From Coriobacteriaceae bacterium (GTDB lineage Bacteria > Actinomycetota > Coriobacteriia > Coriobacteriales > Coriobacteriaceae): a DNA stretch of 64,000 nt. Every line of letters begins with the position of its first letter. Within the stretch, counting starts at the first letter, position 1. The stretch is from assembly GCA_030525945.1 (NCBI GenBank), contig JAUNDT010000006.1:1-64000 (forward strand), written 5' to 3'. A program made the position numbers and the translations under genes. The notes beneath the pieces are model-generated. The model was not told the origin of the DNA, ran no database searches, and saw only the letters and a program-made list of their open reading frames with translations. Positions 13,304 through 29,733 of the stretch are shown here, one piece after another.

Positions 13304-15085
13304 CTATCCCCGCTCGAAGACGCGCTTGCCGGCCACGTAGGTCGCCTGAACCTGCGCCGCCTGAATCTCGTCGGGCTCGCATGCCGTAATGTCTCGGTCG
13401 AGCACCGTAAAGTCCGCCAGGTAACCGGGTGCGATACGTCCCAGTTCCCGCTCGCGACCAACGGCGGCGGCACTGCCCGCGGTATAGATACGCAACGCCT
13501 CAGCAGCGGAAATGCGCTCGCTCGGCAGCCATCCACCCCGCGGCTCGTGCGTGAACGGATCCTGTCGTGTAACCGCGCAGTAGATCACGTTCATGCTGTT
13601 CACCGCCGTGATAGGCGAGTCGGTACCGAACGCCTGGTCAACACCGTGCGCCGCATACGTTGCGAACGGCCACATCACGCGGCTGCGCTGCGGCCCCAAA
13701 TCTCGCTCGGGACCGCCCGGGTCGAGCGTGATGTGCCCGGGCTGGGAGCTAGCCAGCACGTCCAGCTCACGCAGACGGTCGATATCACCGGGCAGGAGAT
13801 TCTCCAAATGCTCCAGCGTGTTGCGGCCCTGCTGCGGTGCGCCGAACCGGGCGCGGGCCTCCTCAAAGATGCCGAGCGCCTCGTGAATCGCGCGGTCGCC
13901 AATTGCATGGATGCGCACGGAATGGCCCCGCTCGGCGGCTGCGAGCACGAGCGCGCGCATGCAGTCAGCGGGCACCGTGGGGCGGCCGCAATCGCCGGGA
14001 GTGCGCGCGTTGGCATACGGGTCGGTGAGCCACGCCGTGTGCTGGCTGCTCACGCCGTCGAAGAACTGCTTGAAGCCCGGCGCGCGCAACAGGGGAAACT
14101 CGGCGCCGGCGTAGCGCGCCTGCAGCGCTTCCAGCCGCGACTGATCGTCCAGCAACGTGGGATACAGGTGGGCGCGCAGGGTGAGTTTGCCGGCGCGCGA
14201 AAGAGCCTCGTACACGTCGTCGCGGATGAAGTCGCAACCCGGATGCGGCATGAGCGCCATGTCGCAGATGGACGTGATGCCCTGCTCCGCCATGCGGGCC
14301 ATCTGGACCTCGTACGCGCGGGCGATGTCGGCCTCGGTGAGCCACTCCAGGCAGCGGGGCAGCAGCTCCATCGCCGCCGCCTCGCGGATAATGCCCGTGA
14401 GCTCGCCGTTCTCATCGCGGTCGTAGCTGCCGCCCTGCGGAGGCACCGAGTCGCGCGTCACGCCCAGCGCCACGAGCGCACACGAGTTCACCCACAGGGT
14501 ATGGCCGTCGCCCGAGTACATAACGCACGGACGATCGGGGAAGGCCTCGTCGAGCGAGCGCTTGGTGGGCGGCACGGACGGGTCCCAGCGATAGTCGCGC
14601 CAACCTTGGGTAACCACCCAGGCATGGCTCGGCAGCCCCGCCGCGAACTCGCGCGTGCGCGCCACCAGCTCCGCCTCGCTCGCGCCCATGTGCATAAGCA
14701 GATAAGGAGACTCGCCGAGCGCCGTGTGGAAGAAATGCAGATGGGCGTCGTGGAAACCCGGGCAGATCAAGGCGTCGCCGTAGTCGAAAACCGACGTGGA
14801 TGCGGGGCAGGCCGCCTCCACATCTGCGCGCGAGCCCACAAGGACGATGCGGTCCTGCGCCACGGCAAACGCCAACGGACTGGCCGCGCGTTCGCCTGCC
14901 GAGCTGGTGAACACACGCGTCGAGGTAACGATGTAGTCGGCGTTTTGGCTGGTTGCGCCTCGGGTGCTCGTGATGCGGTCGCCCACACCTTTGCGCTGTG
15001 TGGTCGAGCGGTTTACGCCTCGACCTCCCGCGCACTGGCAACCCGTGCCCTCAGCCGTTCCGCCCGACGTGCTATCCGCGTTCAT
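13304..15085 (-). CDS. YtcJ-like amidohydrolase (metal-dependent, composite domain)
   Basis: 593 residues of the amidohydrolase superfamily, YtcJ/N-substituted formamide deformylase-like. It shows the first metal motif HDAHLHF after a beta-sandwich half (LICPGFHDAHLH), GWRDYRWD, HAIGDRAIHEAL, HLENLLP, FGTDSP (metal Asp), and the typical C-terminal IAPGYLADFTVLDRD. Such enzymes hydrolyse amide or related C-N bonds; the substrate is unknown. The N-terminal 45 residues are Gly/Ser/Thr-rich and may be unstructured. AGGAGG precedes the ATG. The start overlaps the end of the upstream nuclease gene by 14 bases, so it may be translated from the same mRNA, although it looks functionally unrelated. Confidence 0.85.
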   Translation of the reverse strand: MNADSTSGGTAEGTGCQCAGGRGVNRSTTQRKGVGDRITSTRGATSQNADYIVTSTRVFTSSAGERAASPLAFAVAQDRIVLVGSRADVEAACPASTSVFDYGDALICPGFHDAHLHFFHTALGESPYLLMHMGASEAELVARTREFAAGLPSHAWVVTQGWRDYRWDPSVPPTKRSLDEAFPDRPCVMYSGDGHTLWVNSCALVALGVTRDSVPPQGGSYDRDENGELTGIIREAAAMELLPRCLEWLTEADIARAYEVQMARMAEQGITSICDMALMPHPGCDFIRDDVYEALSRAGKLTLRAHLYPTLLDDQSRLEALQARYAGAEFPLLRAPGFKQFFDGVSSQHTAWLTDPYANARTPGDCGRPTVPADCMRALVLAAAERGHSVRIHAIGDRAIHEALGIFEEARARFGAPQQGRNTLEHLENLLPGDIDRLRELDVLASSQPGHITLDPGGPERDLGPQRSRVMWPFATYAAHGVDQAFGTDSPITAVNSMNVIYCAVTRQDPFTHEPRGGWLPSERISAAEALRIYTAGSAAAVGRERELGRIAPGYLADFTVLDRDITACEPDEIQAAQVQATYVAGKRVFERG

Positions 15086-18000
15086 CACGTTCTTCCTCCT
15101 TGTGCTCAAGCGTCTTTGCGTAGAGCTTAGCCCGGTTCTTTTGGGCGGGTGTCCAATGCGCGAAGAGCCAGCACTCCTCGCCGGCGATGGTCGTCTGCTC
15201 GTAGTGCGCGGCTTCGCGACCCTCGGGCTTGCGGCGGCGCAGTAGCGGACGATCGAGCCGCAGGTATCTCTGCGCCCACCTGATGTTGTACGCCATCTCG
15301 ATATCGTCAAGGTGGCTGAGGATGTTATCGATGCTGGCGCGCGTTGCCTCGTCCAGGTCGAACAGCGTCGACTTCTTGCGCTTCTTCTCGGCCTTTTGCT
15401 TGGGAAGGCTCGCTTTTTTGACCGGCTTTGGTGCCTGGGGAGCAGGGATGTCCTTCTCCGCAGCGTTGTCCAGCGCGGCGGCGCGCCCTTGCTCGGCGGC
15501 GCGCTTCCGTTCCGCGGCACGCTCCCGTTCCGCGGCAAGCCTCTTCTTGTGGCCTCGCTTGAACTTTCGCGCCGATGTTGGAGGTTGAGGGGCGCCATCG
15601 GTATCTTCCGGTGAAGCGGCGCCCGGCTGGGCAGTCGAAGCGACCGGCGCGTCCACCTGGGCAGTCGAGGCAACCGGCGCCCCCTCCTGCGCTGTCGCCG
15701 CCAAACCCTCGTCCAGCCAGACCGCCACATCGCCGGGAGCGTTCACCTGTGCAGCCGAGACCGCGCGCTCGACCGGCGCGCCTGCCATGCCCGCAGACAC
15801 ATCCGACATGTCCATCGCGCTGGCAGATGTCTCCCCATGCGCCATCAATGCAGTAGCTGCCCCGAATCCTGTCGGCGCAACAGCCGCATCCGCCTGCACC
15901 GCAACACCCACCTGTACCACCGGATCCGCCGCGCTCGACACCTCCACAACAGCGGCAACCTCAGCAGCGGAAGCCTTCACAGCCGGATCACCCGCCGCGC
16001 CAAGCTCCGCACGGTCACCCAGGGTCAATTTGGCGCCAACCTCGTTCGTGGGCACCTGCACTGCGCCTCTCCCGCCAGCGCCATCCGCGACAGCGACCTT
16101 GACAGCCGCAGCCCCAGAAGCAGCCTCAACGGCAACCGCGCTCAAAGCCGTCACCTCAACAGCGGACATCTCGGCAGCAGGCGTTCTTAAACTCGTTCCG
16201 CCAACGGTGGCTGCCTCAGCAGGCGCCACCTCGGCAGCGGCAACCTTCGCGCTCAGCTCTGCAGCCTCCACAGCAGCGCCCTGCGCGCGCATATCATCGG
16301 TGTCCTGCGCCCGCATGCTGGCAACGCCACAAAACACCTCGGCAAAAACCGCATCGAGGCAGTCGGTCTCCGCATTGAGCACCGCCACGCCCGATCGCGG
16401 GCCAAACCCGCGCGTCATCGCCCACGGGGACGACTCGGCATATTGCACGGGAGCGTACTTTTGCTTGCCGGCGACCAGCCACACGGACGACACACGCTCG
16501 CCCGACGAGCCCATCACGTCCATGCGGTATTTGAGCGTGCACTCCGCAAACTCACCGCCCTTGGGGTACCCCATGAACAACTCGTGGGACTTGCGATACT
16601 TCGCGTCGACCACGTGATACGTGCGCACGCCCACCGGATCCGTCACCTCAATGAGGTAGTCCGGCGTCCAGTAATTCTGCATGCGCACGCCCTCTTTGTA
16701 GGACAGACGGTGCAGGACAACGCCCTCCTCCTCGAGCATATTCGAGCGGAAGATGGGCTGATAGTAGAGCTTCACTCCCAGCACACCGTCGCTGCCGCAG
16801 CGCTCCAGCTCGTACACGCTCGCCACGCCCGTCTCGGGCTTGAAGAACCCTTCCGGCTGGTAGGAACCGCAGCGCACCGCGCGCTCAACGGGCCCTGCGG
16901 GCGCGAACCCGCGTGCGTGGAGCCAGCCGAGCATACGGTGGAGCACGAAGTACTCGTACAGCTTGTCCAGCTTCGCGGCCTGAAGCGCGAGGCCCTCTTT
17001 TGCCAGGGAGAAGTCGCCGAACGCGAGCCATTCCTGCATGCAGCCGAATATGCGCATGTAGGGGTGCACCTCGGTGAAGATCTTGGTGCGGCGAACGCTG
17101 TATCCAAACGCCTCCTGCACGTCGGGCATGAACGCCCCGTACACGCGCCGCAGCTCGCGCGCACGCGATGCGCATGTATCGAGCCTATCTAAGAACGCGC
17201 GCTCGCGCGTGGCGTACGCGCGCACGATGGTGAGCGCCGGCAGCATGGAGGCGTCGCTCGAGATGCCCTGCAGCCGGTCCTCCATCGAGCGGACCTCGTG
17301 CGACGCCCGCTCAAGCGCCGTGTGAAGCAGCGAGGACACGCGCGCGATTTGGGTGAGAAATCCCAAGATCCGCTGGTTCTCGTAGCTGTTGTACGTCCTC
17401 ACGCGAACGGAGGTCTCCACCTTGCGAGGCATGTACCATCTGCCGTTGTAGTACACGCCCTCGCGCTCGGGGCACTCGGCCAGCACGCCCGTGTTGCGCG
17501 ACAGCCACATGAGCTCGTTGCGCCCCGCGTTGCGCACCGCCCCCAGCGGAACCGTGCGGTGCTGCTGGACAATGCGGCTATGCGCGCCCGAGCGAAAGAA
17601 GCTCCGGTGCCGCTCGTATTCCGCCAGCGAGCGCTCAATCAGCTCGACCATCGACGTGATCGACTTGGCGGAATGCTCGGCAGCCTGCCCGTCCATGATG
17701 GAATACGGGCCCGAGCCGTCGCGAGCGCAGCCGAACATCCAGCTCGACGGCACGTCGTCGGAGTCGAGCAGCTCGCTCAGCATGCCCTCGACGTTGGCGG
17801 AGTCCACCGGGTTTTGCGAACGGCACGGGATGTCACGCGTGGTGAGCAGGAGCGGCTCGGGCGCGCCCTCCAAGAACAGCTCGACCTCAACGCGAGCGAA
17901 CCCGTACGTCATTTTGAAGTACTGGGCAACGTGCTTGTGCTCGCCGGGATGCTTATGGTCCACGAGCGACATGCGAAACGCCGCGCAGTCGGCCTCCCCC

Positions 18001-18239
18001 TCCACGAGGGAGGTCTTGGTGTGCACGAGCTCCACCGGCTCGCCGCCGTTGATGCCCACGAACGCGCGCGTAGGTGCAAGCGAAGAGCTCAAGTGCAGGC
18101 ACAGCTCGTATGTGGCCGCATCGAGCACGCTGCCGCCCTCCGCCAGCCGCATGGCGTTGGGCACGTCCTCGACAGGAAACAGGTCAAAGGCGGCCCGCTC
18201 CTGCTCGTCGCGGCCCACACCCGCAAAGCAGATGCGCAT
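15072..18239 (-). CDS. DUF2357 / PD-(D/E)XK nuclease, partner of the McrB-like ATPase
   Basis: 1055 residues. Residues about 1-370 match the DUF2357 type of N-terminal region that precedes a PDDEXK_7 nuclease. The nuclease core is around 490-600, with TPDYLIEV (Asp526) and VVDAKY (D-x-K, 545-547) as the catalytic D...DxK set, and a conserved Tyr/Arg helix after it. Residues about 640-900 are an Ala/Val/Glu-rich low-complexity linker. The end is Lys/Arg-rich, then has a folded-looking segment from about 970 to 1040 with DIEMAYNIRWAQRYLRL. The start is 4 bases past the ATPase stop; a GTG 13 codons upstream is an alternative. By analogy with McrC it should be the cutting subunit driven by the ATPase. 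Confidence 0.8.
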   Translation of the reverse strand: MRICFAGVGRDEQERAAFDLFPVEDVPNAMRLAEGGSVLDAATYELCLHLSSSLAPTRAFVGINGGEPVELVHTKTSLVEGEADCAAFRMSLVDHKHPGEHKHVAQYFKMTYGFARVEVELFLEGAPEPLLLTTRDIPCRSQNPVDSANVEGMLSELLDSDDVPSSWMFGCARDGSGPYSIMDGQAAEHSAKSITSMVELIERSLAEYERHRSFFRSGAHSRIVQQHRTVPLGAVRNAGRNELMWLSRNTGVLAECPEREGVYYNGRWYMPRKVETSVRVRTYNSYENQRILGFLTQIARVSSLLHTALERASHEVRSMEDRLQGISSDASMLPALTIVRAYATRERAFLDRLDTCASRARELRRVYGAFMPDVQEAFGYSVRRTKIFTEVHPYMRIFGCMQEWLAFGDFSLAKEGLALQAAKLDKLYEYFVLHRMLGWLHARGFAPAGPVERAVRCGSYQPEGFFKPETGVASVYELERCGSDGVLGVKLYYQPIFRSNMLEEEGVVLHRLSYKEGVRMQNYWTPDYLIEVTDPVGVRTYHVVDAKYRKSHELFMGYPKGGEFAECTLKYRMDVMGSSGERVSSVWLVAGKQKYAPVQYAESSPWAMTRGFGPRSGVAVLNAETDCLDAVFAEVFCGVASMRAQDTDDMRAQGAAVEAAELSAKVAAAEVAPAEAATVGGTSLRTPAAEMSAVEVTALSAVAVEAASGAAAVKVAVADGAGGRGAVQVPTNEVGAKLTLGDRAELGAAGDPAVKASAAEVAAVVEVSSAADPVVQVGVAVQADAAVAPTGFGAATALMAHGETSASAMDMSDVSAGMAGAPVERAVSAAQVNAPGDVAVWLDEGLAATAQEGAPVASTAQVDAPVASTAQPGAASPEDTDGAPQPPTSARKFKRGHKKRLAAERERAAERKRAAEQGRAAALDNAAEKDIPAPQAPKPVKKASLPKQKAEKKRKKSTLFDLDEATRASIDNILSHLDDIEMAYNIRWAQRYLRLDRPLLRRRKPEGREAAHYEQTTIAGEECWLFAHWTPAQKNRAKLYAKTLEHKEEERDERG

Positions 18240-18243
18240 CGCC

Positions 18244-20868
18244 TTAGATGAAGTACTGGTAGTAGCCACTGTCCTCACCGTACTTCTTCATGTTCTCCAG
18301 CAGATCCGTGGTCACCTTGAGGCTCTGGCATTCCTGCAGTAGCTCGTCCACCAAGGGCGCCACGATCTCGCGCGGGCCAGCGATCGCGGGCAGGACCTTT
18401 TGGGCAAAGGCAAAATCGAGGGCGGCGTATGCGCCCGAGGCCTCGTTTGCCGCCATGAGCGGGGCGGCGGAGGCAATGTAGCGGCGCATCATGAGCAGCG
18501 AGCGATGCGAGATCGGCATGCCGTTGCGCTTGCACACATTCGCCAGCGAGGTGAAGAGGGTCTCGAGCGCATCGTCGCGCATATCGGTCGCCGTGCCGCC
18601 AAAGACCTCGAGCAGCTTGCCGTAGGAATACGGAATGCCCTGGCCAAAGGCCGCGTCGGTGTCGAGCGCGCCCATTTCGGTCATGGGGTCGGGGGCGCCC
18701 AGCGTGATGACCCAGCTTCGGTCGAGGAAGCGCGGGGAGAGCGCCTCGGTGGTGTGGTCGTAGTTCACCGTTGCCATAAAGCGCATGTGCCCGGGCAGGC
18801 GCCAGTCCTCGTCGCGGCCGAGGGCGAGCTTGCCGCCGCACGTGCGGAACGTGTCGCACGCGTGCATGAACGGCCCCCAGTAATGCTCGATGGGCGACAG
18901 GTTCGCCTCGTCGAGCAAGAACAGGTAGGGCGCCACCGGGCCCTCGCCCGTGCGCTCGCCCGCCAAGCGCTTCATCGCGTCGAAGACCTGCGGGATCGTT
19001 TTTTCGTACGTCTTGGCGATGGGGTTGTGGTAGCCGATGTAGTCCTTGTACGAGGTCCAGCCGTTCTCCACGTCGATTTCGGTGAAGCGGGACAGGTCGG
19101 GATTGGTGTTCGTGAGGCCCAAGGCGCCGGCCACAATGCGGCACATGCTGGTTTTGCCCGTGCCGGGCATGCCGGCGAACGTGGTGATATAGCCCTGCAT
19201 GAGGCACGTGACCATGTTCACCACCTCGTTGCGGCTGATCGAGCGGCCGCCCATGTTCGTCACGCGCGAGGCGATCTCGTCCACCAGCTCGGTGGGCGTC
19301 ATGGACTCCGCGTCGTCGCGAACGGGCACGGCAACGGGCGCCACGGCCGCGCTTTGCTTCTCCTCCAGGTCGAGGTCGTTCACCGCGCGGACGACCTTGC
19401 GCAGGATCTCGTTCTCCAAGATCTTGCCCGTGGTGGTCGCCTCGTTGTTCAGGTTGCTCAGGATATGGTCGATCTGCTCCTCAACGGCGAGCTTGCTGTG
19501 GACCGCGCGCTCGTAGCGGGTCTGCGCCTCGGCGACCGCGGCGCGGCGCTCGTTGATTTCGGCGTCGAGCTGCTTGATTTCTCCCTGCTTGCTAGCAAGC
19601 GCGTCGGCGATGGTCTTCTCGGCGTTGGCGCGCGCCTGGGCCTCCTCCTCGTGCGCCGCCTGGCATGCCTCACGGGCCGCCTCTTCTTCCTTGAGCAGGC
19701 CGTCGCGCCGCTTACGGATGTCCTCCATCTCGCGCTCGAGCTCGTAGCGCTCCTCGTCCAGGCGCTCCTTGACGCTGGCGCTTTTGAGCAGGCGATCCTT
19801 GACCTTGGGATACACCTCGTCGCTCGCCATGATGTGGCCCAGGCGCTCGTCGTCGATGCGGGTCAGGATCTGCTCGAGCACCTCCTTGTTGAACAGGACG
19901 GCGTCCTCCATGCCGTCCACCGCGTCCTCCAGGCGCTGGCGGCGCTTGTCGTCCAGGCTCGCGGTGTTCGCGGACCGCGCGTAGTCGTAAATAGCGCTTT
20001 TGAGGGAGTTGAGCAGGGTTTTGTCGAAGGTCTTCAGCTTTTCGGAGCCGTTGATGATGCTACGGAACAGCTCGCTCATGCGCTCGTCCGGCAGCCAGTC
20101 GTAGCTTTCGTTTTTGTCGGTGTTGTCGATGAGCGTGTCGATGTAGTCGCGGCGCAGGAACGTGGCGATATGCGCGTGGCCGCCCGCCGCGCCCTTGTTG
20201 AGCGAGAGGCGCTCGGCCACCGGGATGCTCGTGAAGCGGTATACGCGGAAGTCGAGGTTGTCAATCGCGGACAGGTGCAGGAAGCCCTGCTGGTCGGTGC
20301 GATACGTGAACGGACCGTAGTAGGCGGGGCCGTTGGGTGTTTGCTCCTGCAAAAAGATGCGGGGGCAATGCAGCTCGCCAGCGTCGGAGGCGAGGCGGAT
20401 GGGCGTCTTGAACGGGCGGGTGAAGTCCAGTTTGGCGGACTCGGGCAGCTTGAAGATCTGATAGAGACCGGCGGCGATTGGGGACTCCATCAGGGGTTCC
20501 ATGCGCAAATGCGAGCCGCCGCGCATGTCCGGATCGAAGAACGCCAGGAGACGATCGGCGACGCCCGACATGCCGTATCTGTTATTGGGATTGAAGGGCA
20601 TCATGACGGTTGCCGTAACCACATTGCCATAGCGCTGGGAGATTTCATCAATGCCAATCGATGCCCAACGGTTGACGGGCATGGCGGTAAAGGCACCGTC
20701 GTCGGGGAAAAGGGTTTCATCCACGCGTTCGAGCGTGCCGTTTTCCTCGGCGTACAGCGGATACAAGCTAAATGCGCGCGCGTCTGGGTCGTTTGGATAT
20801 GAGGCCCAACAAATAAGGTTTGTTTTTATATAGCGGTCGGCATCGTTGTAATCGTGTCCGTAGCTCAT
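18244..20868 (-). CDS. McrB-like AAA+ ATPase with coiled coil
   Basis: 874 residues. Residues 1-320 are an unrecognised N-terminal region, possibly target-recognition. Residues about 366-472 form a long charged coiled coil with heptad-like Glu/Arg/Ala patterns. The AAA+ core has Walker A GMPGTGKTS (566-574), Walker B YLFLLDEAN (648-656), and a sensor/arginine-finger segment MATVNYDH...SPRFLDRS (698-717) like that of McrB. Together with the downstream nuclease it resembles McrBC-type (type IV) restriction and the coiled-coil nuclease tandem group. GGGAGG precedes ATG 20868; an in-frame ATG 31 codons upstream is less well supported. Confidence 0.82.
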   Translation of the reverse strand: MSYGHDYNDADRYIKTNLICWASYPNDPDARAFSLYPLYAEENGTLERVDETLFPDDGAFTAMPVNRWASIGIDEISQRYGNVVTATVMMPFNPNNRYGMSGVADRLLAFFDPDMRGGSHLRMEPLMESPIAAGLYQIFKLPESAKLDFTRPFKTPIRLASDAGELHCPRIFLQEQTPNGPAYYGPFTYRTDQQGFLHLSAIDNLDFRVYRFTSIPVAERLSLNKGAAGGHAHIATFLRRDYIDTLIDNTDKNESYDWLPDERMSELFRSIINGSEKLKTFDKTLLNSLKSAIYDYARSANTASLDDKRRQRLEDAVDGMEDAVLFNKEVLEQILTRIDDERLGHIMASDEVYPKVKDRLLKSASVKERLDEERYELEREMEDIRKRRDGLLKEEEAAREACQAAHEEEAQARANAEKTIADALASKQGEIKQLDAEINERRAAVAEAQTRYERAVHSKLAVEEQIDHILSNLNNEATTTGKILENEILRKVVRAVNDLDLEEKQSAAVAPVAVPVRDDAESMTPTELVDEIASRVTNMGGRSISRNEVVNMVTCLMQGYITTFAGMPGTGKTSMCRIVAGALGLTNTNPDLSRFTEIDVENGWTSYKDYIGYHNPIAKTYEKTIPQVFDAMKRLAGERTGEGPVAPYLFLLDEANLSPIEHYWGPFMHACDTFRTCGGKLALGRDEDWRLPGHMRFMATVNYDHTTEALSPRFLDRSWVITLGAPDPMTEMGALDTDAAFGQGIPYSYGKLLEVFGGTATDMRDDALETLFTSLANVCKRNGMPISHRSLLMMRRYIASAAPLMAANEASGAYAALDFAFAQKVLPAIAGPREIVAPLVDELLQECQSLKVTTDLLENMKKYGEDSGYYQYFI

Positions 20869-21100
20869 AGCGCAGCAACCTCCCTTGCGTTGGGAGCCGC
20901 CCTTGGGCCGCAAGGACGACTCCGCCCCATTGAAGTACACCTTACCAGTACGTGCGGACATGGGCTGCGCCCTTTCGGCGAGCGGGCGCGCGGAGGCTGA
21001 GGGCGCTCGCATCAGGCTGGCACGGCGTCAAGCGATTCGCGGCCGACCTCGCGTTCACCTGAAGCGGTCCCTTTAAGCGGATCCACCGCAACGAACGGGC

Positions 21101-22494: not shown

Positions 22495-22680
22495 GGGTTT
22501 CCTTTCGCAAGGATGGACACGAACGCGCAAAGCATATCGCCTTGCATTACACGGGATCCGCGAGCAGAACGCTCAATCCACAGGTGGTTTGTTTTTATCG
22601 GTGAGCGTGAGGGCGCGCGGCGCTCAAGGGCAAGAGGGTAGAATAGCCGCATGGAGACCGCGCGGGCTGAGAGGTGCGTC

Positions 22681-23040
22681 ATGCGACTCATTGGCAACAT
22701 TATTTGGATGCTCTTTGGTGGGATTATCACTGCTGTTTACTGGTTTTTGGTGGGGTGTTTGTTCTGCATCACCATCATTGGGATTCCGCTGGGGCGTCAG
22801 GCCTTCAAGATGGCATCGCTCACGCTGGCGCCGTTTGGCAAGACCATCGAGTACGGCGGCGGCGCGCCGTCGCTGATTGCCAATATCATTTGGCTGCTGT
22901 GCGCGGGTCTTCCCATGGCGATTTCGTACGTGATCGCCGGCGTGGTCAACTGCATCACCATCATCGGCATCCCCTTTGGCCTGCAGGCGTTCAAGATGGC
23001 GAAGCTCTCGCTGCTTCCGTTCGGCGCGCAGGTGCGATAG
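22681..23040 (+). CDS. YccF family inner-membrane protein
   Basis: 119 residues with two tandem YccF units. Each is a membrane segment followed by the conserved CITIIGIPxGxQAFKMA pattern (about 24-40 and 89-105). The family is widespread and of unknown function. The ATG at 22681 has GAGAGG 6 bases upstream, better than an ATG 10 codons earlier. It is the first plus-strand gene in the window and stands alone, with a TAGAAT that could serve as a -10 about 45 bases upstream. Confidence 0.9.
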   Translation: MRLIGNIIWMLFGGIITAVYWFLVGCLFCITIIGIPLGRQAFKMASLTLAPFGKTIEYGGGAPSLIANIIWLLCAGLPMAISYVIAGVVNCITIIGIPFGLQAFKMAKLSLLPFGAQVR

Positions 23041-23088
23041 GCGCTGGGGGCGGATTTATCGGGGGCGGAGGGGGTTGTACTTTCCCGC

Positions 23089-23412
23089 CTATCGGCGCTC
23101 CTCGCTCAACACCGCGGCGGCGTAGTCTTGCGAACGATGGAATACATGCAGGATATGAACTGTTTCGTCCTTAATGCTATAAATGGCGATGTATTCCTTG
23201 ATTCTAAATGACCTGTAACCTCGCGCAGCTAAAAACAAATCGCTGCACAGCGGGCGGCCTTTTGGGAATGCTCTAAGGAAATCTACTCCCTTTTCCAGCT
23301 CATCGAGGAAATCTGCCGCAGCGACTGGAGATGCAAGGGTGTCTTTGATGTAGGCGTAGATCCCAGCAATATCGATGGCGGCTTTTCTGGTCACGACAAC
23401 CCTAGTTGCCAT
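23089..23412 (-). CDS. ParE/RelE-family toxin
   Basis: 107 residues of the RelE/ParE superfamily. The N-terminal helices AAIDIAGIYAYIKDTL and the later strands PLCSDLFLAARGYRSFRIKEYIAIYSI, then VHILHVFHRSQDY, match the ParE-type fold. Such toxins poison gyrase (ParE) or cleave mRNA on the ribosome (RelE); which one applies cannot be told. The start overlaps the antitoxin by 11 bases with GAGG inside the antitoxin gene, so the two are coupled. Confidence 0.9.
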   Translation of the reverse strand: MATRVVVTRKAAIDIAGIYAYIKDTLASPVAAADFLDELEKGVDFLRAFPKGRPLCSDLFLAARGYRSFRIKEYIAIYSIKDETVHILHVFHRSQDYAAAVLSEERR

Positions 23413-23671
23413 TCTGGGACCTCAATCCAGAAATGAAGGCATCAAAGTCCATGACATCGCCGCTTTCAATGTCACGCTCTGCCTCCTGGAGATGCTCGTA
23501 AAGCTTTGCTTTGGCCGCATTGAGGCGGATTCCCTCATACACCTCGTTTGACATTGCAACAAAAGCGTCGTAACCGTTCCTGGTCACCGTGACGGGAGCA
23601 TCCGAATTATTGAGAACCTCGATGAACTTGGTCGTGTCCTTCACATCCCTAACGGGAACGCAGACCGGCAT
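23402..23671 (-). CDS. Phd/YefM-family antitoxin
   Basis: 89 residues. The N-terminal half (VPVRDVKDTTKFIEVLNNSDAPVTVTRNGYDAFVAMS) is the Phd/YefM DNA-binding fold. The C-terminal 35 residues are a charged helix that would wrap the toxin. It neutralises the downstream ParE/RelE protein and normally represses the shared promoter. GGAGG lies 6 bases before the ATG. Confidence 0.9.
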   Translation of the reverse strand: MPVCVPVRDVKDTTKFIEVLNNSDAPVTVTRNGYDAFVAMSNEVYEGIRLNAAKAKLYEHLQEAERDIESGDVMDFDAFISGLRSQNGN

Positions 23672-23680
23672 AACAGGCCT

Positions 23681-23730
23681 CCAATAACGTCACAGAATTA
23701 TGTCACATCAATAATATTACCAGTCATAGC
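23681..23730 (-). promoter_or_regulatory. toxin-antitoxin promoter/operator region
   Basis: Just upstream of the antitoxin ribosome-binding site is an A/T-rich stretch with a CATAAT-type -10 on the minus strand, and a direct repeat GTCACA at 23689-23694 and 23702-23707 (13 bases apart), a plausible Phd/YefM operator. Boundaries are approximate. Confidence 0.45.
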
Positions 23731-23824
23731 AGTGCGTCAAATGCTCTAAACAACTTGCCGTAATCGCCCGCGAATATGGGGTATCAAAAATCCACTCAGG
23801 CAAACCGCTTCTTCTCGAGTGGCT

Positions 23825-23872
23825 TGAGGTAGTTCTTTTTGAGCGAACGCTCATTCAAAAAGAACTACCTCA
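23825..23872. repeat. 18-bp perfect inverted repeat
   Basis: Arms 23825-23842 (TGAGGTAGTTCTTTTTGA) and 23855-23872 are perfect inverted copies around a 12-base loop, which itself can pair GAGC with GCTC. It lies between the toxin-antitoxin genes and the truncated DUF3800 gene. It could be a terminator for the latter or the end of a lost mobile element. Confidence 0.7.
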
Positions 23873-23890
23873 GATTTGCTCAGGCTGGAA

Positions 23891-24025
23891 TCACTTCGTT
23901 TGGCGGAAATCAGCTCGAGTGTGCAACACATCGTGAAATACGAGCGTCATGATGTAATGCGGAACATGAGACTCATATAGTCCGAAATCGCCTGATTCAT
24001 CGATGGGGATGCTGGATTCGGACAT
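23891..24025 (-). pseudogene. DUF3800 protein, N-terminal remnant
   Basis: 44 residues. The first 32 (IDESGDFGLYESHVPHYIMTLV region) are the typical start of a DUF3800 protein, an RNase H-like fold of about 200-250 residues often found in mobile or defence regions. After residue 32 the sequence no longer follows the family and stops. GGAGGCG before the ATG shows the original start is kept. It is probably a decayed fragment, with the 18-bp inverted repeat beyond its end. Confidence 0.65.
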
Positions 24026-24042
24026 CGCAACGCCTCCGAAAA

Positions 24043-24070
24043 GAAAAACGGCGGAGAAAAGTCCCCGCCC
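24043..24070 (-). terminator. terminator after the SPFH/virion-core remnant
   Basis: On the minus strand GGCGGGGA and TCTCCGCC pair around CTTT with one mismatch, followed by GTTTTTC. It is about 90 bases past the stop of the upstream remnant and just ahead of the ribosome-binding site of the DUF3800 fragment. Confidence 0.65.
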
Positions 24071-24159
24071 TTGGGTGGACCAGGGCCTTGCTGCCAGCCC
24101 AGGATTTAAGCTTAGCCATCTTTGATGGCATTGGTCAGTATGATCTGCCGGTGTTTTCC

Positions 24160-25002
24160 CTATTGGGAATTGAGTAACGTCGGAGGAACCGGAGGCATTC
24201 CCGGGTCTGACGTGCCGCCGGCAAAAAGAGCGGCGAGATCCGCAACGCTTCCTGCAGAGGCCCACTCGCTCATGCCCGGTTTCCACACCAGGGACCCACG
24301 CGTGAGCTGGCCAGCCGCAGCCATCTGGGCAAGCGCCGCCATGTCAAACGGACCGGTCGCCACACCATTAACCGCAACGTGATACATCGGCTGCGGCACA
24401 GGCGGTGGAACAGGGATTCCAGCAGCAGGCACCTGGCCACCCAGTCCGCCCACCATGCCGTTCATCATGCCGGCGATGTTCTGGCCCACGGCACCGCCAA
24501 CGGCCATGCCCGCCATCATCGCCGCAGGATCGAACCAGCCGCCTGCGCCGCCGTCAGAACCACCACCGCCGGGATTGCCCACCTCGGTGGCTCCATTGGC
24601 GCCCATCTGCCCGAGCGCCTCCGCGCCCGCAACGCCAACCTCGGCTTGTTTTTCAAGCTGGAATGCACCGATGTTGGTGGTCTCAGTCGCCATGCGCTGG
24701 GCTCGCTGAGCCTCCTCACGCTGGTTACGCAGCGTTTCCTCGAGGTTCTCGATATTGACGCGCTGGCGATCGTGAATGTCCTTGACGCTCGCCTCGGTCT
24801 GAGCCTGGACCGTCTGGGCCTCGACATCGCGCGTGACGGCCATAAGCTGACGGTAGCCGTCGCTCAGCTTGTCGGGCTCAATGGCGGAAATGTCAAAACC
24901 CGACACCTCAACGCCGAACTTGGAAGAGAGGCGCTCTGAAAGCTCGGGCTCGAACTGGTCATGTATGGTTTCGGTTCCCCACCTGGTAAAAAGGAGAGAG
25001 CC
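24160..25002 (-). pseudogene. SPFH/virion-core-type protein, C-terminal remnant with GYF_2-like domain
   Basis: The open frame continues upstream of the GTG at 24906 to a TAA at 25005-25003, with no ribosome-binding site at any in-frame start. The readable part has DQFEPELSERLSSKFGVEV (end of an SPFH band), a charged coiled-coil segment, a Gly/Met-rich linker and a C-terminal GYF_2-like domain (MYHVAVNGVATGPFDM...W). Full-length relatives carry the whole SPFH domain before this, so about 200 N-terminal residues are missing. The cut coincides with the terminator hairpin of the neighbouring small-gene pair, suggesting a recombination junction. Confidence 0.7.
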
Positions 25003-25017
25003 TTAATTGGCTCTCTC
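24986..25017 (-). terminator. terminator of the small acidic/basic gene pair
   Basis: A perfect 9-bp stem GAGAGAGCC / GGCTCTCTC (25009-25017 with 24994-25002), a 6-base loop and CTTTTT on the minus strand, 6 bases after the stop of the 54-residue gene. Confidence 0.85.
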
Positions 25018-25022
25018 GATTA

Positions 25023-25187
25023 TTATCGAAATTCAAATCCCGTTTCTTTTCGAAGCGCTTTGAGAGTCTTATCCTTGCGAAACTTTCTGCCATTAGCTTT
25101 TCTCAGCGTGCCTTTAGGCATGCCGTGCTTCTTCTCGTATGTTCCCACCGTACAATCACTTCGGGTCTTCCTCACAAGTCCAAACAT
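25023..25187 (-). CDS. very small basic protein, second of a pair
   Basis: 54 residues, about one third Lys/Arg, too short for standard gene cut-offs. It has an internal duplication: RSDCTVGTYEKKHG (about 9-22) aligns with RKDKTLKALRKETG (about 38-51), with a Gly/Pro hinge between. AGGGA is 7 bases before the ATG. It starts 10 bases after the acidic 61-residue gene and is followed at once by a strong terminator. Position, ribosome-binding site and terminator support a real gene. I do not recognise the family; nucleic-acid binding is a guess from charge. Confidence 0.65.
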   Translation of the reverse strand: MFGLVRKTRSDCTVGTYEKKHGMPKGTLRKANGRKFRKDKTLKALRKETGFEFR

Positions 25188-25197
25188 CTATCCATCC

Positions 25198-25383
25198 CTA
25201 CCAATCCTCATCATCATCGTCCGAAAAATACTCCTTATCCATATCGGCGATAGCCTCGGCCACTTCGCTGCGATCAGATGAACTCAGAGAATCGTACTTC
25301 TCGTCAAAACCTTCGTAACCCAAATTCCAAAGATTGTCTTTCAGCTCCTGAACCAACTCTGGGTTATTTTTACGCCTTCCCAT
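25198..25383 (-). CDS. small acidic protein, first of a pair
   Basis: 61 residues, helical and acidic, ending in a run of Asp/Glu (DDDDED). GGAGG lies 4 bases before the ATG. It is followed after 10 bases by the 54-residue basic protein and a shared terminator. The opposite charges suggest that the two bind each other, as in antitoxin-toxin or chaperone-client pairs, but there is no family match I can name. Confidence 0.65.
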   Translation of the reverse strand: MGRRKNNPELVQELKDNLWNLGYEGFDEKYDSLSSSDRSEVAEAIADMDKEYFSDDDDEDW

Positions 25384-25418
25384 TAGTCCTCCAACTCGTC
25401 AACATCCGTATTCCTGTT

Positions 25419-25565
25419 TTACCCGAAATAGGCAGCCATTAGCGCGTGGACGTTGCCATAAATCAATAGATACTCGTTCGTAAAAAACCTCCTCACGGTT
25501 TTCAATACGAAACTACCATCAACCCCAAGATACCGACTAATCTCGATATCCGACATGGACTTCAT
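25419..25565 (-). CDS. possible 48-residue helical protein
   Basis: An open frame with SDIEISRYLGVDGSFVLKTV, which resembles a helix-turn-helix, ending 36 bases before the acidic small gene. No clear ribosome-binding site precedes the ATG, and the frame extends a few codons upstream to a TTG. It may be the tail of a decayed regulator. Confidence 0.3.
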   Translation of the reverse strand: MKSMSDIEISRYLGVDGSFVLKTVRRFFTNEYLLIYGNVHALMAAYFG

Positions 25566-25972
25566 GGCAGAATTTGTGAACAACTACTTAAAGAACGACT
25601 AGCTGAGACCATCACCCTTCCGCTTGCCAACATAATCAAAAAAGCAACAGCTCCCGAACCCTGTTTCAAGTGCGAGCCATTTTCCCAATCCTGTCAGAAT
25701 CGCAACACCTGTTGTCCAGCCATTCAACCCATGAACGGTCTCGCGAAAAACGCAGCCCCTCTTACGACGAAGCATTCCGCTCGTCACGGAAATCCGTCGT
25801 AGGAGAGGCCAACCATGAACAACCGAATAGGGAATCAAAGCCCCGGGCAAAAGGCCGGGGTCACGCACGCGCGCACAGCACCGACACCACCCATCCGCTC
25901 ACCGCCGCACGCACCCGCGCACTTGCTGTTCAACGCTTGAACAGCTTTGGTAGGAGCTGTAAGGGGGTGGCA
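25566..25972. other. intergenic region with MerR operator candidate
   Basis: 407 bases without a supported gene; an open frame that runs through it into the MerR gene has no start signals. A GC hairpin CCCCGG/CCGGGG lies at about 25841-25860. A perfect palindrome has 9-base arms GCTGTTCAA and TTGAACAGC with a 3-base centre (25925-25945), ending 27 bases before the MerR ATG. It is a likely binding site of that regulator. Confidence 0.5.
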
Positions 25973-26587
25973 ATGCGCGATTGCGAAACAACGCAAGGCT
26001 GGAAGATTTCTCAGGTCGAGCGCCTGATTGATTTGCCGCGCCGCGATATCCAGCGCGCATGCTACGACGGGCAAGGCGGCGCCTGCATCCTGGAGCCCGC
26101 CAACAGCACATGGGGCAAGCGTTTCTACAGCGCGAGCGACATCGCACGGCTAATGCTGGTCAAACTCTACAAGGATCAGGGCTACTGCCTACCGGAGATT
26201 CGCGATCTGCTCAATGGGCCCGACGGGCACGCCAGCACCAAAGCGGAGCTAGCCATATGGAAGGCAAGACTCGAAGAGGAACTTATTGAGGTAGAACTCA
26301 AGCTCAATCGCGTTGTCGCGCTCCTCGCCACGCTGCGAAACGACAGCTCAGAACATGTCGACGCGTCTGAAAAGCACCTTCGGAACCAGCTACCGAACGA
26401 TGTCATCGAGACCCTTCGGGACATCCTGTTCAAAGAGAACGCCCCGCGCCCAAGCCAGCAAATAATTCAGTCCCTTATCAGCCAGCTAGACAAACCGGGC
26501 ATTGACTTAGCCATCGACCTCTGGGCGGGCCCAGGAAGCTACGACCGCCTTGTTGATGAAATTTGGAATACGAGCCAGCCAGATTAA
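25973..26587 (+). CDS. MerR-family-like transcriptional regulator
   Basis: 204 residues. The N-terminal 75 are a MerR-type winged helix: WKISQVERLIDLPRRDIQRACY, a wing, then RFYSASDIARLMLVKLYKDQGYCLPEIRDLL. A coiled-coil dimerisation segment (about 88-118) and a helical C-terminal domain (120-204) without Cys/His metal sites follow. AAGGGGGTGG sits just before the ATG. The adjacent perfect palindrome suggests autoregulation. The next gene starts 12 bases after the stop, so the regulator heads an operon with the DUF4230 protein and the 29-residue peptide. Confidence 0.8.
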   Translation: MRDCETTQGWKISQVERLIDLPRRDIQRACYDGQGGACILEPANSTWGKRFYSASDIARLMLVKLYKDQGYCLPEIRDLLNGPDGHASTKAELAIWKARLEEELIEVELKLNRVVALLATLRNDSSEHVDASEKHLRNQLPNDVIETLRDILFKENAPRPSQQIIQSLISQLDKPGIDLAIDLWAGPGSYDRLVDEIWNTSQPD

Positions 26588-26599
26588 GGAGAGAACTGA

Positions 26600-27259
26600 A
26601 TGAAGCTGCTCAACCTTGTTAAACAGATTTCCCCAGGAGGCCGCATTGCAATCGCCTTAGCAGTCGGCCTGATTGTTGGATCTCTGGGAACCGTCGCGTT
26701 CCAGGCCTACAACCCAAAAGACGTTATTGCCGAAGGCCCCAAGGAAAGCGTCTCTGCAATCTTCGGACGCATCGTCAACCAAAACAAGATGATTTCGGCA
26801 TCACAGGATTACACATTTGTTGAAAAGGCCGTCGACAAAAACAGGCTTTTCGACATTGTCGACATTCCATTCACTGAGAACAGTTTCTGGTATCGGTACA
26901 CGGGAACTATCGAGGCAACCGTCGACTTGAGCGACGCTTCGCTCGTGAAAAAGAACGAAACCACCTTGGTAATCTCCTTGCCGGAGCCCGTTCTTAGCAA
27001 CAAACCCAACATGGATCTTTCCGGCGTGCTCGAGGAGCGAAACAACCTCCTGAATCCTATCCATGTTTCCGATGTCGACGAGCTCCAGCGCGACTGCATC
27101 GCCATGAGCAACAACGAGGCAGAAAAGAACGGGCTGCTCAAGGCGGCCAAGGAAGCCACCGTGTGCAACCTCCAGCAAATGTACGACATTGCCCTCGGAG
27201 AAAACGAATACAAGGTTGAGGTCGAATGGATTGACAACGCGGAGGTAGACAAGAAATGA
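26600..27259 (+). CDS. DUF4230 membrane-anchored protein
   Basis: 219 residues. An N-terminal membrane anchor (about 15-35, IAIALAVGLIVGSLGTVAF) is followed by an extracytoplasmic DUF4230-like domain with the pattern FWYRYTGTIEATVDLSDASL and LVISLPEPVLSNKPNMD. The family is of unknown function and is often found as small operons. AAGGAG precedes the ATG. Its TGA overlaps the ATG of a 29-residue membrane peptide. Confidence 0.8.
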   Translation: MKLLNLVKQISPGGRIAIALAVGLIVGSLGTVAFQAYNPKDVIAEGPKESVSAIFGRIVNQNKMISASQDYTFVEKAVDKNRLFDIVDIPFTENSFWYRYTGTIEATVDLSDASLVKKNETTLVISLPEPVLSNKPNMDLSGVLEERNNLLNPIHVSDVDELQRDCIAMSNNEAEKNGLLKAAKEATVCNLQQMYDIALGENEYKVEVEWIDNAEVDKK

Positions 27260-27345
27260 AACCCATCATGATTGTCGCCCTTGCCATTGGCGTCCTGCTA
27301 ATCGGCTTCTTCCTCATCAACAACTTGGTCCTGTCCTGGTACTAA
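27256..27345 (+). CDS. 29-residue single-pass membrane peptide
   Basis: MKPIMIVALAIGVLLIGFFL followed by INNLVLSWY: one membrane helix and a short aromatic end. The start overlaps the DUF4230 stop (ATGA), with GGAGG inside the end of that gene, so translation is coupled. It is too short for automatic gene calling. It probably assists or caps the DUF4230 protein in the membrane. Confidence 0.65.
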   Translation: MKPIMIVALAIGVLLIGFFLINNLVLSWY

Positions 27346-27381
27346 ACAGCGTCCTGTCGCATTTCAACGTTAGGAGTAAAC

Positions 27382-28173
27382 ATGAAACGTATTTCCGCAG
27401 CTCTGCTTTCCTGCCTCGTCGCATTATCGCTCTCGGCATGTGGCCAGCCGGCGAAAGACCCCGGTCCAGACTACGCTGATGACGAGGCCATGGAAATCAT
27501 CGCCGATGCATTTGAAGCTCGCCAAGACGTCATCTTCAAAGTTGAAGAAAAGGACCCCAGCAACGCGCAATCAATGAAGAACATGCGCTCCTATGTTGAA
27601 GCCGAGCTTGAAGTCGCCGATAAACTCCGCACGCGAGTGTTTGAAGACAGCGAGATGCAAGAGCTCGTTTTGAAGTACCTGAACACACTTGACAACGCCC
27701 TTAAAACCCTTGAGGAATATCCCGTTACCAGTACGGAGTTCCTCGATGAATGGAATGAGCGAGCAGACATCCGTGCGACCCTGCTCAAAACATTCGCTGA
27801 TGAATATGGCCTAACGGTTGAAGAGAAATATCAAGACATCTTCGATGAGGTCTTGGCAAATGGAGCGGCTGCCGCCAAGGAGAGCCAAACCGAAGAGGCA
27901 CTTCAGGGCGTTCTCGATGCGATCGTTTTCGAGAAGGTAACGGAATATAGCTTCACCACATATTCGGCGGTTGTCGAAAACACGACTGGCGTTGACTTTG
28001 GGGATTGCGCCTTTGACGTTGCCCTGTATGACGCCGAGGGAGTGAAGTTGGACGACAGGTACGTTTTCACCAGCGGCTGGGCATCCGGCGAAAAGGTCCG
28101 CTTCGAGTTTACGTCTGAGGTCGATACCGATCAGATTAAGCTGTCGATCGACTACTACAACCTAGCTAAATAA
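27382..28173 (+). CDS. lipoprotein with C-terminal FxLYD-like domain
   Basis: 263 residues. The signal peptide has lipobox LSAC (Cys20). A helical, acidic middle (about 35-185) is followed by a beta domain (about 190-260) with SFTTYSAVVENTTGVDF and DVALYDAEGVKLDD, the pattern of FxLYD/DUF domains that pack on the cell surface. The ATG has TAGGAG upstream and lies 36 bases after the 29-residue peptide, so it may belong to the same operon. Its role is unknown; a cell-envelope stress or binding function is a guess. Confidence 0.75.
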   Translation: MKRISAALLSCLVALSLSACGQPAKDPGPDYADDEAMEIIADAFEARQDVIFKVEEKDPSNAQSMKNMRSYVEAELEVADKLRTRVFEDSEMQELVLKYLNTLDNALKTLEEYPVTSTEFLDEWNERADIRATLLKTFADEYGLTVEEKYQDIFDEVLANGAAAAKESQTEEALQGVLDAIVFEKVTEYSFTTYSAVVENTTGVDFGDCAFDVALYDAEGVKLDDRYVFTSGWASGEKVRFEFTSEVDTDQIKLSIDYYNLAK

Positions 28174-28228
28174 ACGCCCAAGCAAAAACCTTACCCATAG
28201 ACCGTCTATCCGTTTACCGAAAAGCAGA

Positions 28229-28274
28229 ACGATTCCCCCATCAAAGATGACAGTATCTTCGATGGGGGAATCGT
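28229..28274 (+). terminator. long hairpin between the lipoprotein and GTPase genes
   Basis: Arms of 20 bases (28229-28248 and 28255-28274) pair with a single mismatch around a 6-base loop, followed by CTTTCG. It is about 55 bases after the lipoprotein stop and 18 bases before the GTPase start. It may terminate one operon or fold in the leader of the next. Confidence 0.65.
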
Positions 28275-28292
28275 CTTTCGAAAGGACTTATT

Positions 28293-29465
28293 ATGGACAA
28301 AGGAAACATTCTCGTCATTGGTAATTCTGGCGTTGGCAAGTCGACACTCGTCAATGCAGTCCTCGGCGAAGAGAGAGCAGAAACAAGCCGCGGAATCAGC
28401 GGTACCACCAAGGAGCTCAAGATTTACAGTAGCGACTCTGCTCCCTTCAATATTGTAGACTCCGTTGGCTTTGAACCGTCTTGGCGCAAACGCACCCAAG
28501 CGATTAATGCCGTTAAAAAATGGTCTAAAGAGGGCGCCAAGGGCAACGAGCCAGAAAAGCGAATCGATGTTATTTGGTTTTGCGTCGATGGCACTGCGGG
28601 CAAGCTATTTCCCCAAACCATTGAATCTCTTTCTCGTGCCACAAAAATGTGGGCGTCAGTCCCCGTTATCGTTGTAATTACCAAGTCCTACGCTGAACCA
28701 GAACGAAAAGAAAACACTCAGATTGTCTACAATGCTTTTGCAAGGCAGAAAAAGTTCTCAAAGAACCTAAAGGCAGTTATCCCGGTGGTCGCATGGCCGT
28801 ATCAAATCACAGATGACTACGCCGTTCCTCCGCAGGGGATCATCGAGCTCATCGATACCACAGTAGAGCTACTTCCAGAGGGAAGGAAAGCCGCTGACAG
28901 GGACATTGCTTCCTTCAAGCTAAAGCGTAAAAGAGCTCTTTCCCATGCAACCTCCGTCTCCTTCAGCACTCTTGGTGCCGCCGTTGGAGCGGCTCCCCTT
29001 CCATTTGCCGACGCTGCACCTCTTTGTGCAATTGAAACAGCAGAGATTAAAGCCATCTCCGCTATTTACGAAATCAAATCTAACGATGATTCTTCTCGGC
29101 TGATCGAGTCTCTTATTGAAGTTGGCACCGTAAGTCTTGCCGCAAAAAGTGCCATTAGCGCTCTCAAGCTAATACCGGGTATCAATATTGCTGGAAGCGT
29201 GTTGAATGCAACCATTGCCGCATGCATCGTCATGGCTGTTGGAGAAGGCTCGCGATTCATCTTCGAAAAAGTTTATCTTGGCGAAGCATCTGTTTCCGAT
29301 TTGGAATGGGCAAAGAGATTACTGGAGTCCCGACTTGCTGATAATTTCATTTCTAAGGCTACCGAGGCAATTGAGGCAGTCTCGGAACGTGGCACCTCTA
29401 GCAATGTAAGTCAAATCATCTCCGACATCGTCTCGGCTATTTTCAAAGACGAAACACCCAGGTAG
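28293..29465 (+). CDS. P-loop GTPase with C-terminal membrane-active (DUF697-like) region
   Basis: 390 residues. The GTPase domain (1-190) has G1 GNSGVGKST (10-18), a conserved Thr in SGTTKE, G3-like DSVGF, and VVITKSY in place of canonical TKxD. The second half (about 215-330) has two long Ala/Gly-rich hydrophobic helical stretches (SFSTLGAAVGAAPLPFADAAP; SLAAKSAISALKLIPGINIAG) as in DUF697 proteins, which associate with membranes. Related standalone GTPases occur in accessory and defence islands. AAAGGA precedes the ATG. Its base composition is clearly lower in GC than the flanking core genes, indicating transfer. Confidence 0.78.
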   Translation: MDKGNILVIGNSGVGKSTLVNAVLGEERAETSRGISGTTKELKIYSSDSAPFNIVDSVGFEPSWRKRTQAINAVKKWSKEGAKGNEPEKRIDVIWFCVDGTAGKLFPQTIESLSRATKMWASVPVIVVITKSYAEPERKENTQIVYNAFARQKKFSKNLKAVIPVVAWPYQITDDYAVPPQGIIELIDTTVELLPEGRKAADRDIASFKLKRKRALSHATSVSFSTLGAAVGAAPLPFADAAPLCAIETAEIKAISAIYEIKSNDDSSRLIESLIEVGTVSLAAKSAISALKLIPGINIAGSVLNATIAACIVMAVGEGSRFIFEKVYLGEASVSDLEWAKRLLESRLADNFISKATEAIEAVSERGTSSNVSQIISDIVSAIFKDETPR

Positions 29466-29490
29466 TTCTTCACTGCTAAAAAGTTATGCA

Positions 29491-29527
29491 TAAGGCGGAT
29501 CATGGGAAGCACTCGCGATCCGCCTTA
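29491..29527 (+). terminator. hairpin after the GTPase gene
   Basis: Perfect 11-bp arms TAAGGCGGATC (29491-29501) and its inverse (29517-29527), with a 15-base loop, 25 bases past the stop. There is no strong T tract, so termination is probable but not certain. Confidence 0.5.
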
Positions 29528-29656
29528 GATTTACCCGTATTTAGAAGCTCTTGCCTAAACAGGCGCGCACAAAAGGAAAGCTGCCCGAGTCCTTGTATTA
29601 AAGCACGAATGTGAACGCAACTCACATACCCGCAACTACCTGCGGATTTCCCGTAC

Positions 29657-29716
29657 TGAGTATTTTTACTCATTGTACTGAGTAAAAATACTCAGTACAA
29701 TGAGTAAAAATACTCA
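29657..29716. promoter_or_regulatory. 60-bp palindrome with three phased 16-bp units
   Basis: TGAGTATTTTTACTCA at 29657-29672, its inverse TGAGTAAAAATACTCA at 29679-29694 and again at 29701-29716 are spaced exactly 22 bases. Together they form a palindrome that is perfect except for the central A/T run. It ends 17 bases before the start of the AAA_14 gene and overlaps where its promoter must lie, so it is likely an operator. Confidence 0.75.
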
Positions 29717-29733
29717 ATAGGAGCTGAAGGCAT

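Follow-up and report, generated by a model that had tools for sequence, protein, structure and literature searches.

Two adjacent genes on the minus strand of a Coriobacteriaceae genome raise the question of whether they encode a defence system of the McrBC kind and, if so, what such a system would recognise. McrBC systems are widespread, but detailed understanding is limited to the kind that reads methylcytosine. The two genes form a tight unit within the window, by which we mean the whole stretch of 64,000 nucleotides that was analysed, on a contig of a 1.88-Mb genome. Judged from its sequence, the pair meets the description of McrBC homologues and is quite probably an McrBC-like, type IV-like anti-phage restriction system. 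The first gene (18244..20868, minus strand) encodes an McrB-like AAA+ protein of 874 amino acids, identified by its homologues, the invariance of its motifs, Pfam AAA_5/AAA matches, the PADLOC model PDC-M26A and an hhalign comparison with E. coli McrB; a ribosome-binding site, aagggaggttgctgcgct (20869..20886, minus strand), read from the sequence and containing GGAGG, lies upstream of its ATG start at 20868. The second gene (15072..18239, minus strand) encodes an McrC-like nuclease of 1055 amino acids when read from the ATG at 18239, assigned on the basis of Pfam, an AlphaFold model, Foldseek and its catalytic residues. Both ORFs are intact, with high third-position GC along most of their length. 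The ATG at 18239 lies 4 nt past the ATPase stop, as the preliminary description of this DNA had it; with an alternative GTG start at 18269 the two genes would overlap by 26 nt, and the same overlap is seen at the mechanically called nuclease starts of three relatives (L023, L028 and L043). Which start is used is uncertain, and conservation cannot decide, because the stretch that encodes the shared TSTS residues is also, in another frame, the conserved end of the ATPase gene.

A GC profile gave about 0.60-0.66 for the pair itself, with no sign in its GC content of recent import. The flanking genes in the window are 3-hydroxyacyl-CoA dehydrogenase-like and amidohydrolase-like, and the pair has no defence gene as an immediate neighbour there. 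The operon is a two-gene unit with unrelated neighbours, in which neither a second nuclease or RNase nor a CnuH helicase was found, and no methyltransferase gene was recognised in the neighbourhood of the pair in the window. Further along, at 22500-27000 (as far as profiled), the GC content dips to 0.49-0.62 as against ~0.65-0.70 leftward, and the region 22500-30000, which adjoins the pair, is possibly an acquired island; it holds a toxin-antitoxin-like couple (23089-23671, minus strand, by eye), a Der/TrmE-like GTPase (28293-29465, plus strand) and a DUF4143-type ATPase (29734-30927, plus strand, by eye).

The AAA+ core of the ATPase (residues ~545-874; 18247..19236, minus strand) was delimited by motif alignment, which placed Walker A at residues 566-573, Walker B at 651-656, an NxD motif at 702-704 and arginines at R713 and R717. 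The protein matched the Pfam AAA_5 and AAA models, and its profile matched E. coli K-12 McrB with an E value of 7.8e-7 (hhalign), Walker A, the DExN Walker B and the sensor Asn and Asp being common to both. The initial reading of the protein as an AAA+ ATPase with intact Walker A and B motifs and an McrB-like sensor was thus confirmed, and G566xPGTGKT, D653-E654-A-N656 and N702-Y-D704 are invariant across 37 ATPase homologues. The shortened NxD motif is what marks out the NxD branch among McrB GTPases, a branch in which no GTPase has been characterised so far (PMC11090510); on its motifs the core belongs to this branch, and the ATPase is predicted to be a GTPase. The residue after NxD is His instead of the usual Glu or Asp. 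Walker B and the Asn of NxD are 49 residues apart in 37/37 ATPases, and between Walker B and NxD there is no type I-A helical insert, nor any insert relative to K-12 McrB. The coiled coil that had been suggested ahead of the core is supported at residues ~352-476 (19441..19815, minus strand) by coiled-coil profile matches and, weakly, by a 3.5-residue periodicity (p ~0.02). PDC-M26A matched the ATPase with 82 bits (E 6e-24) over the coil and half of the AAA+ core, and it matches 37/37 ATPases of the family. Lon and beclin, which appeared as PDB matches of the ATPase profile in a sequence-only comparison, were put down to P-loop and coiled-coil similarity and discounted.

The predicted sensor is the beta-rich domain at the N-terminus of the ATPase (residues ~1-260; 20089..20868, minus strand), defined with AlphaFold, Foldseek and hhalign and here called the GPF domain after its YYGPF motif (residues 183-187), within which GP is invariant. 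Residues 1-320 had been noted as an unrecognised region, and indeed no Pfam model matched them even at E 10; the DUF3578 (ADAM) methylcytosine domain was likewise not found by Pfam up to that value. Structure prediction, a step proposed for both proteins in the preliminary description, gave for ATPase residues 1-335 (35 homologues) a confident model (mean pLDDT 83, pTM 0.80) of two beta-rich units (~15-140 and ~165-260) followed by helices. Against PDB structures this model matched nothing at E<=0.001, and a fold search against viral structures gave nothing significant. Its best sub-threshold Foldseek matches were OB-fold nucleic-acid binders, namely CTC1, Csl4, HIN-200, RPA and Pot1, the exosome Csl4 match having a probability of 0.8, and an OB fold in the model is only suggestive. 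The domain is homologous to the N-terminal regions of relatives on gammaproteobacterial plasmids and prophages (hhalign E 2.6e-15, 252 columns) and is therefore a real, old domain family. It can be called novel in so far as it is absent from family libraries, although its conservation in at least six phyla means that it is not unique to this genome. Carried on a coiled-coil arm, the GPF domain is by analogy an obvious candidate for target recognition, a role that is a guess because its fold matches nothing significantly.

The nuclease partner begins with a predicted beta-sandwich (residues 1-142; 17814..18239, minus strand), recognised from AlphaFold secondary structure and from weak Foldseek matches of the nuclease model, which include immunoglobulin-like folds. 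This prediction is consistent with the IG-like domain of NxD McrC proteins, a common feature of NxD McrC homologues that is also present outside CoCoNuTs (PMC11090510). A DUF2357 stalk or bundle (~194-450) and a PD-(D/E)XK nuclease domain (~450-663) follow (16251..17660, minus strand; Pfam and Foldseek). The single protein matched Pfam DUF2357 at 5e-5 and PDDEXK_7 at 0.03, and at E <= 0.1 these models matched 32/34 and 25/34 nuclease members of the family, respectively. The sole PDB match of the nuclease model at E<=0.001 was E. coli McrC in the McrBC complex (6hz4_M, Foldseek E 5.3e-6, probability 1.00), and the description of the 1055-residue protein as DUF2357-like holds. Compared with K-12 McrC alone, the nuclease profile gave a weak match (hhalign probability 7.5), and it is linked to McrC through the McrC of a second, different McrBC locus of the same genus (L068; E 5.6e-6); the fold match and this bridge carry the identification as McrC. 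The catalytic residues E429, D527 and D545-A-K547 are kept in 33/33 complete nuclease homologues, so that the motifs are intact as first described, although the Asp given then as residue 526 is D527. PADLOC models gave no match to the nuclease at E<=1, and across the 34 nuclease members the only match was PDC-S15, in a single member, at 0.0098.

Beyond the catalytic domain, the long low-complexity linker pointed out earlier (residues ~671-890; 15570..16229, minus strand) comprises ~220 residues, of which 29% are Ala, is rich in Ala and Val and is predicted to be disordered (pLDDT ~30); that this stretch is genuine coding sequence follows from the conserved, folded domain that lies behind it in frame. 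This compact C-terminal domain (residues ~961-1055; 15075..15359, minus strand) spans 95 residues modelled with a pLDDT of ~94, carries the motif P-L-L-R-x3-P-x-G-R-E-A-x2-Y in the alignment, and matched nothing in the PDB or among Pfam profiles. This tail of linker and C-terminal domain is confined to the Coriobacteriia members of the family, and in a few genomes of the order small ORFs encode the domain by itself; at one of these places (L091, 1435-2272) the stand-alone protein adjoins a gene that by eye resembles DUF488. The nuclease on an Acinetobacter indicus plasmid (L071, 9138-11837; 899 amino acids) carries a low-complexity linker and a C-terminal extension of its own, which look unrelated, and such tails may therefore have arisen more than once.

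The architecture of both proteins brings type I CoCoNuTs (CnuB-CnuC) to mind, and if the pair were one, its N-terminal domain would be an RNA binder of the CSD or OB type and the system would sense or cut RNA in abortive infection. The NxD motif, the coiled coil fused to AAA+, the predicted IG-like nuclease N-terminus and a two-gene layout like that of types I-A and I-C (PMC11090510) agree with this reading, as do the weak OB-fold matches of the N-terminal model, several of them to RNA-binding proteins, and a serine/threonine kinase and a VWA gene beside the pair in one relative (L060), like CoCoNuT TerY-P. The N-terminal fold, however, has no significant cold-shock or YTH match, the invariant 49-residue spacing leaves no room for the type I-A insert, no CnuA, CnuH, CnuE or HEPN gene was found, the nuclease is intact and not inactivated, and His stands where Glu or Asp usually follows NxD. 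We consider a CoCoNuT rather unlikely; the NxD motif and the coiled coil were found, the type I-A insert and tandem nucleases were not, and the pair is not demonstrably a member of that group. VWA-domain genes lie near the pair in Akkermansia-type loci and one spirochaete locus (L057, 1-1619; L059, 3766-5273; L060, 3275-5401); the kinase in L060 was matched by the PADLOC mad6/PD-T4-6 models and its VWA gene was recognised by eye, as was a PP2C-like gene in L057. These neighbours recall the TerY-P modules that are linked to CoCoNuTs.

The pair is an accessory trait of its host group. Rather than being conserved in all relatives it is present in 1/45 genomes of its genus and absent from the other 44, and the ATPase occurs in 13/299 genomes of the order, every one of which (13/13) also encodes the nuclease. 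A scan of genome contigs found 41 homologous loci in Actinomycetota, Spirochaetota, Bacillota, Pseudomonadota, Planctomycetota and Verrucomicrobiota. The nuclease lies directly downstream of the ATPase in 37/41 of them, usually with a gap of -59 to +38 nt; this count comprises 35 loci called automatically together with L033, in which the ATPase frame is broken, and L037, in which the nuclease is cut at the contig end. The remaining loci belong to four Planctomycetaceae genomes, each of which encodes the nuclease elsewhere; three have no adjacent nuclease and the fourth locus stops inside the ATPase gene. Their ATPase loci (L048, L049 and L051) and nuclease loci (L104-L107) are thus separated, which is unusual for a restriction pair. 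The strongest sign that ATPase and nuclease act together is that pairing is obligate even when they are unlinked. In an ATPase tree of the family sequences, one NxD McrB and K-12 McrB, host families are mixed within Coriobacteriia and phyla are mixed elsewhere, so that the tree is incongruent with host families and transfer has occurred. In termite-gut Treponema a few sites recur as the location of the pair (by eye, next to bioY-ecf, recG or carAB-like genes), a pattern suggestive of vertical retention as well. Tracing of the flanking genes in 44 same-genus genomes, some of them aligned, gave no clean empty site, because 12-14 kb separates the amidohydrolase gene from holB in L062 and L063, the two aligned relatives with both genes, and the dehydrogenase gene is elsewhere. 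The window and Citrobacter ATPases had no match among phage genomes (tblastn), and the satellite and Klebsiella pairs had none among E. coli genomes (megablast).

The Treponema sites and the unlinked genes of Planctomycetaceae could also be expected of a housekeeping or genome-maintenance AAA+/nuclease pair with no part in defence. Such a role is improbable for a pair that is missing from 44/45 genomes of the genus and 286/299 of the order, that travels on plasmids, a P4-type satellite and prophages, and that has BREX, CRISPR and restriction-modification neighbours in relatives. In L023 the pair lies inside a BREX operon, between BrxC and PglZ; in L022 it is beside Cas3e/Cas8e/Cas1e of a type I-E CRISPR operon; and in L025 it is beside a type III restriction system (all by PADLOC models). 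By annotation, the Acinetobacter plasmid relative adjoins a type II MvaI/BcnI restriction system and the Klebsiella relative stands amid IS and integrase genes. Among viral contigs, a P4-type satellite (L078) carries the pair between integrase and P4-type primase, and a P2-like prophage (L082) carries it between integrase and a CII-like regulator, placements that resemble the antiviral hotspots adjoining the integrase in P4- and P2-like elements (PMC9122126). The term defence operon, applied to the locus at the outset, fits the defence and mobile neighbours of its relatives, although the neighbours in the window itself are not defence genes.

For the preferred reading, an McrBC-like restriction system, a mechanism can be proposed by analogy with McrB. 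The AAA+ subunits would assemble into a ring, from which the coiled coil would hold the GPF domains away so that these could recognise the target. With its DUF2357 stalk the nuclease would enter the ring and stimulate hydrolysis of NTP, probably GTP, through the NxD motif, and the complex would pull on nucleic acid, which the partner's PD-(D/E)XK domain would finally cut. What keeps the host safe would probably be the nature of the target, a modified or otherwise phage-specific nucleic acid as in type IV logic, and not protective methylation; such a target is likelier than an unmodified DNA sequence, since no methyltransferase is encoded nearby. The Coriobacteriia nuclease would have acquired a small globular domain on a flexible tether, with which it may make an additional contact, either to nucleic acid or to a host factor. 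We tentatively propose, leaning somewhat against it as it stands, that the GPF domain, built of tandem OB-like barrels, represents a nucleic-acid sensor of a new class, which would define a distinct, mobile, cross-phylum subclass of NxD McrBC with a target other than methylated DNA (e.g., phage RNA, single-stranded DNA or a replication intermediate); in Coriobacteriia, by the same proposal, the tethered C-terminal domain of the nuclease would provide a second module for recognition.

McrBC-type modules can also combine sequence-specific recognition of unmodified DNA with a protective methyltransferase, as in LlaJI. That the N-terminal domain here reads such a sequence while a methyltransferase protects the host is very improbable, since, for all that such use is documented for LlaJI and a DNA cytosine methyltransferase accompanies another NxD McrBC in two genomes of the genus, no methyltransferase was recognised by the pair in the window or, on inspection, in most of the 41 loci, and the type III methyltransferase of L025 belongs to its own restriction system.

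Set against known systems, the pair shares with E. coli K-12 McrBC the McrB-McrC gene order, the DExN Walker B with sensor Asn and Asp, and DUF2357 with PD-(D/E)XK in an McrC fold. It differs in having the GPF domain and coiled coil in place of the DUF3578 methylcytosine domain, NxD (37/37) in place of NxxD, and a nuclease with the predicted IG-like domain, the linker and the C-terminal domain that the K-12 protein lacks; with the methylcytosine domain and NxxD both absent, it is not a classical McrBC. Type I CoCoNuTs share NxD, a coiled coil on the McrB-like protein, a beta-rich N-terminus and, as predicted for the pair, an IG-like N-terminus of the McrC-like protein (Bell et al. 2024, PMC11090510), whereas here there is no helical insert (I-A), no CnuA (I-B) and no demonstrated CSD or YTH (I-C), and the nuclease is intact without an RNase partner. 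The closest ATPase matches in the same genus are the NxD McrB proteins of genomes G044 and G030, which belong to the different McrBC loci beside a DNA cytosine methyltransferase (L068, 6293-11493; L069, 5679-10879). L068, the best PDC-M26A match (180 bits), shares NxD, a DUF2357/PDDEXK_7 partner and 24% identity over the aligned AAA+ core, whereas both loci differ in the methyltransferase, another N-terminal region and the lack of an added coiled coil. The ATPase matches PDC-M26A of the candidate system PDC-M26, whose second gene was not found. Similar in design are the plasmid and prophage pairs of Acinetobacter, Citrobacter and Klebsiella and that of the P4-type satellite, with the same two-gene layout, GPF domain, coiled coil, NxD core and adjacent DUF2357-like nuclease; identity in the AAA+ core is 28-37%, and their nucleases lack the Coriobacteriia C-terminal domain. 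The family is thus a compact two-gene set spread over six phyla and mobile elements; the type of machine is already known, and what is new is its predicted sensor as a named domain, conserved across at least six phyla and without a library model.
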